This document shows, piece after piece, positions 113-14,181 of a stretch of DNA of 38,461 nucleotides. The first letter of the stretch is position 1. The number at the start of each line of letters is the position of its first letter. The notes under the pieces were generated by a model. The model made no database searches and was not told the DNA's origin. It worked only from the letters and a program-made list of their open reading frames with translations. The position numbers and the translations under genes were made by a program. Source of the stretch: Bacteroidales bacterium (GTDB taxonomy: Bacteria > Bacteroidota > Bacteroidia > Bacteroidales > Marinilabiliaceae); contig DUOK01000270.1 of assembly GCA_012838865.1 (NCBI GenBank), positions 1-38,461 of the forward strand, in the 5' to 3' direction.

Positions 113-189
113 GGTCTGGTAGTTCAGTTGGTTAGAATATCGGCCTGTCACGCCGAGGGTCGCGGGTTCGAGTCCCGTCCAGACCGCCA
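113..189 (+). tRNA. tRNA-Asp (anticodon GTC), CCA encoded
   Basis: The acceptor arm GGTCTGG (113-119) pairs with CCAGACC (179-185). A D-loop, an anticodon loop reading GTC and the T-arm GGTTCGAGTCC are all present. The discriminator G at 186 is followed by CCA in the DNA (187-189). The mature body is 74 nt. It is the first of two identical copies 27 nt apart, and the pair probably forms one precursor transcript. The GTC anticodon reads Asp codons GAC/GAT. Confidence 0.97.
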
Positions 190-216
190 ACATTTATTGA
201 AAGAATTGAATTGCTT

Positions 217-290
217 GGTCTGGTAGTTCAGTTGGTTAGAATATCGGCCTGTCACGCCGAGGGTCGCGGGTTCGAGTCCCGTCCAGACCG
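217..290 (+). tRNA. tRNA-Asp (anticodon GTC), second copy without encoded CCA
   Basis: The 74-nt body is identical to the upstream copy, including the GTC anticodon and acceptor pairing (217-223 with 283-289). After the discriminator G at 290 the DNA reads CAAA rather than CCA, so this copy needs RNase Z-type trimming and CCA addition whereas the first copy does not. A terminator follows directly, making this the last gene of the transcript. Confidence 0.97.
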
Positions 291-291
291 C

Positions 292-8185: not shown

Positions 8186-9139
8186 CTATATGCTTTGCTG
8201 TTCCTTTAAAAGCCGATCAAAGTACTGGATGGTTTTCTCCAGTCCTTCTCTGAGCTGAACCCGGGGTTCCCAGTTGTTGAGTCGCTCCCGGGCCAGGGAG
8301 ATGTCGGGCTGTCTTTGGGTGGGGTCGTCTTGCGGAAGCGGCAGGTGTTCTATTTTGGATTTGGACCCGGTAAGGTCCAAAACTTCCCGGGCCAGTTCCA
8401 GCATCGAAAACTCATGCGGATTACCCAGGTTCACGGGTCCAATAAATTCATCCGGGGCCTCCATCATCCGTATCATGCCCTCCAGCAAATCATCCACGTA
8501 TTGAAAACTGCGGGTTTGCATGCCGTCGCCAAAAATGGTAATGGGTTTATTCTGCAAGGCCTGAACAATGAAGTTGGATACGACCCGCCCGTCGTTGGGA
8601 TGCATGCGGGGGCCGTAGGTGTTGAAGATGCGAATGACCCTGATGTTGACCTGATTTTGCCGGTGGTAGTTGAAAAACAAACTCTCTGCACAGCGCTTAC
8701 CCTCGTCGTAGCACGACCGAATACCAATGGGATTAACGTTGCCCCAGTAATCTTCGGGTTGGGGGTGTACCAGGGGGTCGCCATAAACTTCGCTGGTAGA
8801 TGCCTGAAGAATTTTCGCCTTAATACGCTTGGCCAGTCCCAGCATATTTATGGCACCCATCACCGAGGTCTTTATGGTTTTGATGGAGTTGTACTGATAA
8901 TGTACGGGAGAAGCCGGACAGGCCAGGTTGTAAATCTCGTCTACCTCTACAAAATAGGGGTGGGTAACATCGTGCCGCACCAGTTCAAAATAGGGGTTGT
9001 CGAGCAAATGAACAATGTTTCGCTTGCTTCCGGTAAAGTAATTATCGAGACAGATGACTTCATGGCCTTCCCGAATCAGACGGTCGCACAAATGCGAACC
9101 GATAAAACCTGCACCACCGGTTATGAGTATTCGCTTCAT
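8186..9139 (-). CDS. UDP-glucuronate decarboxylase (UDP-xylose synthase)
   Basis: This 317-aa extended SDR enzyme of the UXS family decarboxylates UDP-glucuronic acid to UDP-xylose. The NAD-binding GGAGFIG is at residues 8-14. [21 protein letters not shown] and SCYDEGKR (catalytic Tyr144 and Lys148) are hallmarks of UXS rather than of dTDP-glucose 4,6-dehydratase (RfbB). It is the first gene of the operon with rfbA, rfbC, rfbD and the phosphohexomutase, in the position where one might expect rfbB. No UDP-glucose dehydrogenase is nearby to supply its substrate. Confidence 0.93.
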
Positions 9140-9178
9140 TTTGTTGCTGCTAGCTGGTTGTTTGGTTCAAAATTATCC

Positions 9179-9186
9179 CAAAAGTA
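9179..9186 (-). promoter_or_regulatory. -7 box for the uxs-rfb-pgm operon
   Basis: On the minus strand the site reads TACTTTTG, an exact TAnnTTTG match, about 40 nt upstream of the uxs ATG. The expected -33 TTG is not at a good distance; a TTTTTG ends only 12 nt upstream. An 8-bp inverted repeat directly abuts the box. Confidence 0.55.
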
Positions 9187-9187
9187 C

Positions 9188-9211
9188 GGCTTTATCCGCA
9201 AAAATAAAGCC
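9188..9211. promoter_or_regulatory. Inverted repeat overlapping uxs operon promoter (candidate operator)
   Basis: GGCTTTAT (9188-9195) and ATAAAGCC (9204-9211) are perfect inverted copies with an 8-nt spacer. The repeat lies 1 nt upstream of the -7 box, where a bound protein would block or assist RNA polymerase. It precedes the transcript, so it should act as DNA rather than RNA. Confidence 0.45.
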
Positions 9212-9313
9212 TTTGTGAAAATTTTAGCCCCTTACCGCCACCTTGTGGTGCAAGAGCTGTTTTTAAGCAAGTATTTTTTTGCCTTATGTGCTGTTTCTTT
9301 GGTATAAAAGTCG

Positions 9314-9321
9314 TACTTTTG
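9314..9321 (+). promoter_or_regulatory. -7 box for rpsA
   Basis: TACTTTTG is an exact TAnnTTTG match 56 nt before the rpsA ATG, giving a leader of about 50 nt. The -33 region is weak (CTG with a 20-nt spacer). The 238-nt gap 9140-9377 thus holds two divergent promoters and little else. Confidence 0.55.
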
Positions 9322-9377
9322 CAGCGATTTTTAAGTAAATATAATGTCTAACCAAGTAGTTTTGTAATTAAAATTTA

Positions 9378-11243
9378 ATGGCAGAATTAGAAGAAAAGGG
9401 TCAGGAGCTGCAAGCTGAGGCCCAAAATGCAAAGGTTCAGGCGAAAGCCGTTGAAACCGCCGACGACAATTTTGACTGGGACAGTTTTGAGGCCGACGAA
9501 GTTGTTGTAGATGGCAAGAAGAAGCAGGATCTTGAAAAAATGTACGACGAAACCCTGTCGACCATTTCTGAAAAAGAAGTGATTGATGGTACCGTGATTG
9601 CAATGAACAAGCGTGAAGTTGTAATCAACATCGGTTTTAAGTCTGACGGTATCGTCAGCCGTAACGAATTTCGTTACAACCCCGAACTGAAAGTGGGTGA
9701 TCAGGTAGAGGTTTATGTAGAAAGCCAGGAAGACAAAAAAGGTCAGCTGGTGCTTTCGCACAAAAAAGCCCGCGCACTGCGCTCATGGGATCGTGTTAAT
9801 GAGGCCCTGGAGAAAGATGAAATCATCAAAGGCTACATTAAGTGTCGTACCAAAGGGGGTATGATCGTTGATGTATTTGGCATTGAGGCTTTCCTCCCCG
9901 GTTCTCAGATCGACGTGAAGCCCATTCGCGACTACGATGTTTTTGTAGGTAAAACCATGGAATTTAAGGTGGTTAAAATCAACCCCGAATTTAAAAACGT
10001 GGTGGTATCGCACAAAGCGCTCATCGAAGCCGAACTGGAGCAGCAGAAAAAAGAAATTATCTCCAAACTGGAGAAAGGTCAGGTATTGGAAGGAACCGTT
10101 AAGAACATCACCTCTTATGGGGTATTCATTGACCTGGGTGGCGTAGACGGTTTGATTCACATCACCGACTTGTCGTGGGGACGTGTTTCTCACCCCGAAG
10201 AGATTGTACAGCTCGATCAGAAGTTGAATGTCGTTATTCTCGACTTCGACGACGAGAAGAAGCGTATTGCTTTGGGTCTGAAGCAGCTGACTGCTCATCC
10301 GTGGGATGCTCTGGATCAAGAGCTGAAAGTGGGCGATATTGTTAAAGGAAAAGTAGTGGTGATGGCCGACTATGGCGCTTTCGTTGAGATTGCTGCCGGT
10401 GTGGAAGGTCTGATTCACGTTTCTGAAATGTCCTGGTCACAGCACCTGCGCAGCGCTCAGGATTTCCTGAAAGTGGGCGACGAGGTAGAGGCCACCATTT
10501 TGACCCTCGACCGCGAGGAGCGCAAAATGTCTTTGGGTATGAAGCAGCTGAAGCCCGATCCATGGGACAATATCGAGGAGAAATATCCTTTGAACAGCAC
10601 ACATTCTGCCAAAGTCCGCAACTTCACCAACTTTGGGGTATTTGTTGAAATCGAAGAAGGTATCGACGGTTTGGTGCACATTTCTGATCTCTCATGGACC
10701 AAGAAAGTGAAGCATCCTGCTGAATTTACCGCCATTGGCGAAAACATTGACGTAGTTGTTCTTGAAATTGATAAGGAAAACCGTCGTTTGAGCCTGGGTC
10801 ACAAGCAGCTCGAAGAAAATCCCTGGGATGTTTTCGAAACCATTTTCACTGTAGACAGTATTCATGAAGGAACCATTGTTGACATTTTCGATAAAGGTGC
10901 CGTAATTGCATTACAGTATGGTGTGGAAGGTTTTGCTACCCCCCGTCACCTTGTTAAGGAAGATGGAAGTCAGGCCAAAGCTGAGGAGAAGCTTGAGTTT
11001 AAAGTGATTGAGTTCAATAAGGGTGCCAAGCGCATCATTCTTTCTCACTCACGCATCTTCGAAGACGAGCGCAAAGGGGAAGAGCAGACGGTCCGCAACG
11101 AGCAGGCTAAAGCAGCCGCAAGCACCAAGAAGAATGTGAAAAAGTTGAAGGACAATCTGGAAAAGACCACCTTAGGTGATATTTCTGAATTGGCAGCGCT
11201 GAAAGATCAGATGGAAGCCGATGAGAAGGACGCCAAGGAGTAA
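9378..11243 (+). CDS. rpsA: 30S ribosomal protein S1
   Basis: This 621-aa protein has six S1 (OB-fold) RNA-binding domains, at roughly residues 66-134, 150-215, 236-304, 321-389, 408-476 and 493-560. The repeats carry the GVFI/GAFVEI and GLIHISDLSW signatures, and KVGD segments link them. An acidic N-terminal extension (DDNFDWDSFEADE) and a basic Lys-rich C-terminal tail flank the domains, as in Bacteroidota S1. S1 helps mRNAs bind the 30S subunit. Its promoter is at 9314; the STAS gene follows after 23 nt, so it may share the transcript. Confidence 0.96.
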   Translation: MAELEEKGQELQAEAQNAKVQAKAVETADDNFDWDSFEADEVVVDGKKKQDLEKMYDETLSTISEKEVIDGTVIAMNKREVVINIGFKSDGIVSRNEFRYNPELKVGDQVEVYVESQEDKKGQLVLSHKKARALRSWDRVNEALEKDEIIKGYIKCRTKGGMIVDVFGIEAFLPGSQIDVKPIRDYDVFVGKTMEFKVVKINPEFKNVVVSHKALIEAELEQQKKEIISKLEKGQVLEGTVKNITSYGVFIDLGGVDGLIHITDLSWGRVSHPEEIVQLDQKLNVVILDFDDEKKRIALGLKQLTAHPWDALDQELKVGDIVKGKVVVMADYGAFVEIAAGVEGLIHVSEMSWSQHLRSAQDFLKVGDEVEATILTLDREERKMSLGMKQLKPDPWDNIEEKYPLNSTHSAKVRNFTNFGVFVEIEEGIDGLVHISDLSWTKKVKHPAEFTAIGENIDVVVLEIDKENRRLSLGHKQLEENPWDVFETIFTVDSIHEGTIVDIFDKGAVIALQYGVEGFATPRHLVKEDGSQAKAEEKLEFKVIEFNKGAKRIILSHSRIFEDERKGEEQTVRNEQAKAAASTKKNVKKLKDNLEKTTLGDISELAALKDQMEADEKDAKE

Positions 11244-11266
11244 TACTAATTTAATGTGACCCAATA

Positions 11267-11623
11267 ATGGATTTCAAAATTGACAAATTAGATGATTTCA
11301 ACCTGGTTCAGGTGCTGAAGGAAAAACTGGATACTTCTATCGCTCCCGGCTTAAAATCAGAATTGGTTTTGCTGTCGGGGAACAACGAAAAAAATATTCT
11401 GTTGGACCTGAGCAAATGTACTTATTGCGATTCGTCTGGTTTGAGTGCCATTTTGGTCGCCAATCGTCTTTGTAAAAACAGCGAAGGGGTATTTGTTTTG
11501 GCAGGATTACAGCCGGCTGTGGAGCGACTGATTGCTGTAAGTCAGCTGGATACTGTAATTACCATTGCCCCTACCGCTGAAGACGGAATTGAAATGATGC
11601 GAAAGGCACTGCAGTCAAAATAG
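11267..11623 (+). CDS. STAS-domain protein (anti-sigma factor antagonist type)
   Basis: This 118-aa protein consists of a single STAS domain. The motif CDSSGLSAI places the presumed phosphorylated Ser at residue 56 or 57, at the start of the helix, as in SpoIIAA-like proteins. Such proteins bind an anti-sigma or switch kinase when unphosphorylated. No partner kinase or phosphatase is adjacent; the nearest candidate in the window is SiaB at 18179. It lies between rpsA (23 nt upstream) and rnz (6 nt downstream), a tight arrangement that suggests co-transcription. Confidence 0.88.
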   Translation: MDFKIDKLDDFNLVQVLKEKLDTSIAPGLKSELVLLSGNNEKNILLDLSKCTYCDSSGLSAILVANRLCKNSEGVFVLAGLQPAVERLIAVSQLDTVITIAPTAEDGIEMMRKALQSK

Positions 11624-11629
11624 TATTAC

Positions 11630-12556
11630 ATGCAATTTTCCGTTACAATTTTAGGTAGCAATTCTGCGTTACCTACTTCGGAAAGATTTCCAACCGCTCA
11701 GGTGCTCAATGTATCTGAGCGGTTTTTTTTAATCGATTGCGGAGAAGGAACCCAGATGCAGTTGCGCAACAATCATATAAGATTTACGCGCATCAATCAT
11801 ATTTTTATATCTCATTTGCACGGCGATCATTGTTTTGGGCTGATGGGATTGATATCGACATTGGGCTTGTTGGGGCGTACAGCCGATCTGCACATTTACG
11901 GGCATGCCGACCTGGAGAAGGTTTACCGGCCCCAGCTTGCATATTTTTGTCAGGACATGAAATACCAGGTGGTATTTCATCCCGTGGACACCTCCGTATC
12001 TTCGCTGGTGTATGAAGACAACAAAGTTACGGTAACATCCATCCCTTTAAAGCACCGTGTGCCGGCCTGCGGCTATTTGTTTCGTGAAAAGCCCTACGAC
12101 CGACATTTGATCAAACAAAAAATTACGGAATACGGGATACCGGTGAGCGCCATACCCGGCATCAAGAAGGGTGCTGATTTTTGGTGTCAGGATGGAAGAC
12201 TTATCCCCAATGAAGAGCTGACCAGTCCGGGGCCTCGTTCGCGTTCCTATGCCTTTTGTTCCGACACCAAATACAACGAAAGCATGGTGCCAATAATTGA
12301 GAATGTGGATTTGCTTTATCATGAATCGACCTTTCTGAATGGCGATGAAGCACTGGCCCGAAAGACCTTTCACAGTACCGCACGCCAGGCGGCTGAAATT
12401 GCAGCCAAGGCCCAGGCGGGTCGTTTGTTGTTGGGGCATTTCAGCACGCGTTACAAAGATTTGTCGCGGTTTCAGCAGGAAGCGGCTGAGGTTTTCCCCA
12501 ACTGCAGTCTGGCCCTCGAGGGAATGGTCTTTGACCTGCCCTGGCAAAACCAATAA
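11630..12556 (+). CDS. rnz: Ribonuclease Z (tRNA 3'-processing endonuclease)
   Basis: This 308-aa metallo-beta-lactamase-fold nuclease cleaves the 3' trailer of tRNA precursors that lack an encoded CCA. The zinc motif HLHGDH is at residues 62-67. LGSNSALPT at the N-terminus, the SDTKY segment, YHESTF and the C-terminal LLGHFSTRY supply the remaining metal ligands and substrate contacts. The length is that of the short bacterial form. It starts 6 nt after the STAS gene. A complete intrinsic-terminator structure lies inside codons 22-34, which is unusual (see findings). The second tRNA-Asp in this window is a plausible substrate. Confidence 0.96.
   Translation: MQFSVTILGSNSALPTSERFPTAQVLNVSERFFLIDCGEGTQMQLRNNHIRFTRINHIFISHLHGDHCFGLMGLISTLGLLGRTADLHIYGHADLEKVYRPQLAYFCQDMKYQVVFHPVDTSVSSLVYEDNKVTVTSIPLKHRVPACGYLFREKPYDRHLIKQKITEYGIPVSAIPGIKKGADFWCQDGRLIPNEELTSPGPRSRSYAFCSDTKYNESMVPIIENVDLLYHESTFLNGDEALARKTFHSTARQAAEIAAKAQAGRLLLGHFSTRYKDLSRFQQEAAEVFPNCSLALEGMVFDLPWQNQ
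11692..11730 (+). terminator. Intrinsic-terminator structure inside rnz
   Basis: AACCGCTCAG (11692-11701) pairs perfectly with CTGAGCGGTT (11715-11724), and the run of T continues to 11730. Wobble and Watson-Crick pairs can extend the stem inward to about 14 bp. It encodes the PTAQ and SERFF residues of RNase Z, so it could stop transcription early in the gene unless ribosomes cover it. Whether it works is unknown. Confidence 0.55.
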
Positions 12557-12603
12557 TTTGGCCATAATTGGCCGAAGCGCATTATTTTTAAGGGGTTTCT
12601 GCG

Positions 12604-12611
12604 TATATTTG
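12604..12611 (+). promoter_or_regulatory. -7 box for guaA
   Basis: TATATTTG matches TAnnTTTG exactly, 41 nt before the guaA ATG. The -33 region is T-rich but lacks a clear TTG. It gives guaA its own promoter after rnz. Confidence 0.55.
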
Positions 12612-12651
12612 CGGCTCCATATTTCTTTAACTTTCAATTAACCACCGTCAG

Positions 12652-14181
12652 ATGCAGAATAAAATTATTATTCTTGATTTTGGTTCCCAGTACACACAAT
12701 TGATTGCCCGCCGGGTAAGGGAGCTGAATGTTTATTGCGAAATTCATCCTTTTTACCATGTTCCCGAACTCGACGAAAGCGTTAAAGGTGTAGTGCTTTC
12801 GGGCAGTCCCTTCAGTGTTCGCGACGAGAAGGCACCGGTACCGGATTTGAGCAAGATTCAGGGGCAGGTGCCTGTATTGGGTATTTGTTATGGCGCACAG
12901 CACATGGCCCTGGCAGCCGGTGGGGTAGTAGAAGCATCTGATTCCAGAGAATATGGACGCGCCAATCTTGAGTTCATTAACCGGGAAAACCCACTTTTTG
13001 CAGAGATAGAACCCGGGTCACAAGTATGGATGTCGCATGGCGATACCATTATGAATTTGCCCCAGGGTTTTGAAATTATTGCCAGCACACGCGATGTTAA
13101 AGTGGCTGGCTACCATGTGCCCGATAAGCAAGCCTATGGCATTCAGTTTCATCCCGAAGTGTACCACAGTATTCAGGGCCTGCAAATCCTTCGGAATTTT
13201 GTGGTTGATATTTGCGGTTGCGTTCAGGATTGGAGTCCCGCCTCCTTTGTAGAGGATACCGTAAGCCAGTTGAAAGAACAATTGGGCAACGATAAGGTTG
13301 TCTTGGGCCTTTCAGGAGGCGTGGACAGTTCGGTCGCCGCCATTTTGCTGCACAAGGCAGTAGGTACCAACCTGACCTGTATTTTTGTCGATAACGGGCT
13401 CTTGCGAAAGAATGAATTTGCCCTGGTGCTTGAATCTTATAAGCATATGGGCCTGAATGTTATAGGGGTTGATGCCAGGGACCGTTTCCTGGGCGAACTG
13501 GCCGGGGTTTCTGACCCGGAGACCAAACGCAAGATCATAGGTCGCGTATTTATTGAGGTCTTCGATGAAGAAGCCCATAAGATTCAAAATGTAAAGTGGC
13601 TGGCGCAAGGCACCATTTATCCCGATGTTATTGAATCGGTGTCGGTCAACGGACCTTCCGTTACCATTAAATCGCACCATAATGTGGGGGGCTTACCAGC
13701 GAAAATGAATCTTAAGGTAGTAGAGCCCCTTAAGCTCCTTTTTAAGGACGAAGTCCGCAGGGTGGGCAAAGAACTGCAAATTTCTCCCACCATTTTGGGC
13801 CGCCATCCTTTCCCGGGACCGGGCCTGGCCATTCGGATTTTGGGCGACATAACTGCCGAAAAAGTGGCTTTGCTTCAGGAAGTGGATAATATTTTTATCG
13901 AGGGACTCAAAAGCAGTGGTCTCTACGACCAGGTTTGGCAGGCCGGTGCCATGCTGCTGCCCATACAGTCGGTGGGCGTTATGGGCGACGAGCGGACCTA
14001 CGAAAGGGTAGTGGCCCTGAGAGCCGTACAGTCTACCGACGGCATGACGGCCGATTGGGTACATTTGCCTTACGAGTTTTTAAGCCGAATCTCCAATGAA
14101 ATAATCAATAAGGTGCGGGGCGTTAATCGTGTCGTTTACGACATCAGCTCCAAGCCGCCGGCAACCATCGAATGGGAATGA
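12652..14181 (+). CDS. guaA: GMP synthase (glutamine-hydrolysing)
   Basis: This 509-aa enzyme converts XMP to GMP using ATP and glutamine. The N-terminal class I glutamine amidotransferase domain has the nucleophile in GICYGAQ (Cys79) and the partner His-Glu in QFHPEV. The PP-loop SGGVDSS follows in the ATP pyrophosphatase domain. The C-terminal dimerisation domain ends in the conserved KPPATIEWE. Length and motif order are normal. A G-rich hairpin terminator follows at 14226, so it is probably monocistronic. Confidence 0.97.

Follow-up and report, generated by a model that had tools for sequence, protein, structure and literature searches.

A probable internal operon terminator written in the RNase Z codons of Bacteroidia

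Terminators inside bacterial genes are usually regarded as noise or as something avoided. The closest systems described are internal operon terminators located after ribosomal-protein genes, namely the rplJL-rpoBC attenuator and the terminator T1 of the rpsU-dnaG-rpoD operon in Escherichia coli. In Methanococcus maripaludis, ribosomal protein-RNA polymerase operons contain ioTTSs, which are intergenic by definition (PMC10450193), and the ORF-internal 3' ends of E. coli are partly linked to translation, the cases in coding sequences being mostly Rho-dependent or RNase-processed (PMC7815308). A search of open-licence papers retrieved no account of a terminator within rnz.

Here, we analysed a stretch of 38,461 nucleotides from a Bacteroidales bacterium of the Marinilabiliaceae (contig DUOK01000270.1, hereafter the window), in which we consider it quite probable that the rpsA-STAS-rnz operon carries an internal terminator or attenuator written in codons 21-34 of rnz. 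As in rplJL-rpoBC, rpsU-dnaG-rpoD and the ioTTSs, a partial terminator inside the operon would lower a less needed gene relative to a ribosomal-protein gene. Unlike in these intergenic cases, the stem and the T tract lie wholly within the downstream coding sequence, constraining its residues, and the downstream gene encodes RNase Z. The element shares with the ORF-internal ends of E. coli a predicted RNA 3' end within a coding sequence but differs from them by its intrinsic-terminator structure and by covariation across about 40 families. It also recalls the leader-peptide attenuators of the trp and pyrBI type, where an intrinsic terminator stands soon after a start codon and ribosomes could control its folding; unlike in those systems, ribosomes here translate the enzyme itself and no leader peptide. 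Neither a short leader ORF, a diagnostic codon run nor an alternative antiterminator hairpin was seen at the rnz hairpin, where a single fold dominates and the reading frame is that of rnz.

Three genes on the forward strand form the neighbourhood of the element: rpsA, encoding the 30S ribosomal protein S1 (9378-11243; Pfam PF00575, E 6e-78, with the S1 domain in 6 stretches), a gene for a STAS-domain protein of the anti-sigma-antagonist type that is conserved beside rnz (11267-11623; PF01740/PF13466) and rnz, encoding an RNase Z (tRNA 3' endonuclease) of 308 aa (11630-12556; PF12706/PF13691). The gaps between them are 23 nt (rpsA-STAS) and 6 nt (STAS-rnz). The hairpin, on the same strand, lies 62-94 nt downstream of the rnz ATG at 11630. 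Its perfect arms, AACCGCTCAG (11692-11701) and CTGAGCGGTT (11715-11724), are lengthened by GTGC/GTAT to a stem of 14 pairs, composed of a 5' arm AACCGCTCAGGTGC (11692-11705, codons 21-26), a loop TCAAT (11706-11710) whose sequence varies among relatives, and a 3' arm GTATCTGAGCGGTT (11711-11724, codons 28-32), both arms being delimited by fold and covariation. The final two stem bases double as the first two T of a T8 tract (11723-11730, codons 32-34, Phe-Phe-Leu). The preliminary description of this DNA had reported a perfect terminator-like hairpin within the rnz coding sequence, and its arms, T8 tract and coordinates are confirmed. With a GC-rich stem directly 5' of a U tract and a fold of -27 kcal/mol for 11680-11735 (z = -7.2; no shuffle was equally good), the structure is that of an intrinsic terminator. 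A simple terminator finder (consensus scan) ranked it first among the terminator-like sites listed in the first 20 kb, narrowly above the tRNA-Asp terminator, and Rfam covariance models run over 9000-13000 gave no match at E up to 1.

Upstream of rpsA, a pattern scan detected a Bacteroidetes-type -7 promoter element, TACTTTTG (9314-9321, forward strand), as a consensus match. By the crude consensus TAnnTTTG, the last forward-strand motif before rnz stands at 9357-9364, ahead of rpsA; none was found on that strand between 9364 and 11942, and the next, at 11942, is inside rnz beyond the hairpin. The conserved N-terminus of RNase Z spans the hairpin and precedes the HLHGDH motif, and the full enzyme cannot be made from a start located past the hairpin; together with the lack of a consensus promoter, this means that transcripts of rnz must arise by read-through of the terminator. 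Any rnz mRNA has to pass the terminator element that the preliminary description placed inside rnz; the dependence of this element on the upstream operon (see below) had been missed. Over the whole window, TAnnTTTG has 45 occurrences where 26.6 are expected, a number reached in no shuffle, suggesting that Bacteroidetes-type promoters can be mapped there by motif.

The arms coincide with conserved residues, and the preliminary description had left room for chance because they encode PTAQ and ERFF. That the hairpin is a by-product of protein conservation (PTAQ...SERFFL) and codon bias is nevertheless hardly conceivable, being excluded by synonymous resampling, register control and compensating amino-acid changes. 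When the window's residues were resampled synonymously by local codon usage, the fraction of draws with ten Watson-Crick pairs was 2.5e-5 and that with 14 pairs 9e-5. The comparison with relatives covered 288 distinct rnz loci, which share ancestry, 279 of them anchored for pairing counts: at least 11 of the 14 pairs form in 122 of the 279, against never above 10 in registers slid by 1-4 nt. In 156 sequences for which gene order was the sole criterion of choice, the share of paired cells is 79%, versus 53% (at most 55%) under synonymous resampling for the same proteins, and at least 13 pairs are found in 53% of the sequences versus 0.09%. Covariation, counted in a diverse set of 44 taken from hairpin loci, amounts to 84 double-changed cells versus 25.5 when shuffled and no more than 28 in slid registers, the double changes affecting 10 of the 14 stem pairs. 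Register, codon and covariation tests thus agree on selection on the stem and the T tract, and by these tests the hairpin is far from chance and held beyond the needs of the protein.

The individual changes make the same point. Within the genus, rnz proteins with identity down to 69% keep the element nearly letter for letter, and in relatives the T tract is conserved together with the stem. Pairing is kept in family relatives when GCT becomes GCC together with GAG becoming GGG (Glu30Gly), and other pairing-preserving changes are ACC to AGC with CGG to CGC, AGT with CAC, Thr22Ser with Phe32Ile or Thr, and Gln24His with Ser29Asn or His. An alignment of relatives' rnz genes, proposed in the preliminary description as a check, therefore finds the stem conserved and co-varying beyond what the protein requires; the outcome named there as contrary evidence, pairing lost while the protein is conserved, is the opposite of what is seen, since residues change and pairing stays. 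The Glu30 codon is GAG in 97 of 97 hairpin loci and the Ala23 codon is only GCT or GCC, and loci without the hairpin mostly carry other residues (Lys-Leu-Phe-Met in place of Arg-Phe-Phe-Leu), pointing to a probable influence of the RNA signal on the RNase Z residues at the hairpin.

The 10-nt arms had also been reported after the tRNA-Asp pair (295-324), and they do recur at 295-304 and 315-324, after the second tRNA-Asp gene, the two places being the only such ones in the 3.08-Mb genome. The connection drawn from this between the rnz hairpin and the tRNA-Asp terminator was rejected because the homologous terminator differs in relatives: in the nearest one, a Geofilum-like genome (G001), AACCGTTCAG..TTGAACGGTT follow tRNA-Asp and the rnz stem is unchanged, and the tRNA-Asp terminators of G002 and G004 are unrelated. 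A single substitution per arm divides identity from difference between the two stems, and on this comparison the identity is a coincidence. A genome-wide repeat or uptake-like motif was also rejected, ACCGCTCAG occurring 28 times versus 14 for the reversed control and forming two inverted pairs only. The tRNA-Asp genes stand in tandem, two in the window (113-291) and three or more in the nearest relative; on contig C185 of G000, a further tRNA-Asp copy is also followed by AAAAACCGCTCAGTTT, so that the assembly probably breaks within this repeat.

The presence of the hairpin follows the arrangement of the genes upstream. When no terminator follows rpsA in an rpsA-STAS-rnz cluster, the hairpin is found in 97 of 97 loci (mean -21.1 kcal/mol), versus a mean of -9.7 in the nine loci with a terminator right after rpsA, three of which have no hairpin and two a strong one (p = 3e-5, before any relatedness correction). 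When rpsA is directly upstream of rnz, the hairpin is present in all three loci with a gap under 30 nt (6, 19 and 27 nt) and in none of the 38 with a gap over 60 nt, where an intergenic terminator is found in 35. All contexts taken together, a codirectional gene ends within 45 nt upstream in 167 loci, 123 of which have the hairpin, and none of the 48 loci with an intergenic terminator has it. The 44 loci that have a close upstream gene and no hairpin mostly have other upstream genes, and four loci are off pattern, three of them weak (L096, L138, L298) and one of ambiguous context (L297). A tree-based pair test went nearly always in the right direction, with about 3-4 informative supported pairs and no significance. 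In some families of other orders of the class, rnz is preceded by STAS alone or by a gene for a T9SS-type secreted protein and the hairpin is often kept; the rule is thus one about genes running straight into rnz and not about rpsA alone, and the neighbourhood explains much of the presence or absence of the hairpin.

Several individual loci deserve mention. In seven loci from families of other orders (L212, L215, L216, L220, L227, L230 and L232), the gene at the rnz start encodes a secreted protein of some 255 aa whose C-terminus resembles a type IX secretion sorting domain; STAS comes before it in most, and the in-gene hairpin is kept. L237 (and also L290, L296 and L310) appears to hold a relic, a weakened in-gene hairpin beside another terminator after rpsA, which looks like a terminator exchange under way. 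In L217, L234, L321, L330 and L333, STAS ends less than 20 nt from rnz and no in-gene hairpin was found.

We propose that a strong rpsA promoter would drive transcription across rpsA and STAS and that most RNA polymerases would stop at about 11725-11730, the main transcript ending inside rnz, so that the polymerases reading through would alone make rnz mRNA. Output would thereby be stepped down, with no promoter for rnz, from the level of the abundant ribosomal protein S1 to that of RNase Z, a scarce enzyme of tRNA processing. We infer termination in vivo, its efficiency and the rpsA promoter from sequence, and a partial read-through lowering rnz is implied by the absence of an rnz promoter motif. 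Read-through may depend on translation of rnz or be a fixed leak. Translation is a plausible way past the terminator: a ribosome loading fast on the rnz start, about 60 nt before the hairpin, would open the stem and help the polymerase through. The upstream stop codon lies at a median of 70 nt before the hairpin, so ribosomes ending there would leave the hairpin uncovered, and those starting at rnz would cover it.

A stronger version, in which completion of rnz mRNA requires timely initiation by a ribosome at the rnz start codon and a failure to initiate stops transcription, would be an extra layer on the step-down more than an alternative to it, and we give it somewhat less than an even chance. 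The terminator lies downstream of the rnz start at an invariant distance of about 62 nt, and the upstream stops, usually 0-20 nt before that start, are spaced suitably for termination-reinitiation, which short intergenic gaps of this kind favour (PMC10666635). Moreover, a promoter of its own tends to go with the intergenic terminator and not with the in-gene one, as if the coding position permitted passage: TAnnTTTG is found between the terminator and the rnz start in 27 of 41 intergenic-terminator loci versus 2.6 expected, and of the 123 hairpin loci 18 have it at up to 300 nt, versus 19.2 expected. The cost to the protein is also tolerated across many families. However, descent alone could fix the position and the short intergenic space is already a sufficient reason for placing the terminator in the coding sequence; in species with runaway transcription, ribosomes do not follow closely behind the polymerase (PMC13323073), and the open-licence papers searched gave nothing on transcription-translation coupling in Bacteroidia. 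It is only tentatively that we envisage an ancient gate of the Bacteroidia, an in-gene terminator opened by ribosomes, with RNase Z as the translation-gated fraction of S1 transcription and a signal that has shaped the residues of the enzyme.

Two other readings take the hairpin away from operon structure. It might act after transcription, by affecting how the rpsA-STAS mRNA is processed or how stable it is, and a stable hairpin could indeed shield a 3' end, but this is very improbable, since stem and T tract are conserved together and ordinary stem-plus-T terminators stand in for the element elsewhere. Autoregulation, whereby low tRNA maturation, or binding or cleavage of the hairpin by RNase Z, would control termination, has in its favour the sole point that the gene encodes RNase Z; we consider it very improbable, and the feedback between tRNA and RNase Z suggested in the preliminary description is not borne out, as the hairpin tracks the upstream gene arrangement rather than rnz, its loop is not conserved, no Rfam family matches and relatives do not preserve the arms common to it and the tRNA-Asp terminator. 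We thus favour the step-down terminator.

About 120 of the 288 distinct rnz loci keep the hairpin at exactly the same codons. The carriers include the window's own family, with Geofilum rhodophaeum (Marinilabiliaceae) as a close relative, another 31 families in the same order and 10 in other orders of the class; among cultured species, G. rhodophaeum and Carboxylicivirga mesophila bear the hairpin. Nearly all of the Bacteroides- and Prevotella-type loci examined lack it, and a covariance model run on an even sample of the phylum detected no further carrier under strict filters, by which weak matches would be lost. Viral contigs scanned for the 3' arm and T tract gave 27 matching records, as raw pattern matches. 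The use of the same codons across families points to one old origin followed by many losses, repeated gain being an alternative.

An in-gene terminator thus appears to have been kept at the same codons across many families, with compensating amino-acid changes, and a simple rule emerges: the rpsA unit is followed by one terminator, which lies in the intergenic space or else inside the next gene. The conserved protein motif PTAQ...ERFFL calls for caution, as such a motif can reflect an RNA signal. In the Bacteroidia, whose ribosomes work without Shine-Dalgarno pairing (PMC9976891), the rnz hairpin would be a natural case in which to test whether intrinsic terminators are protected by translation.
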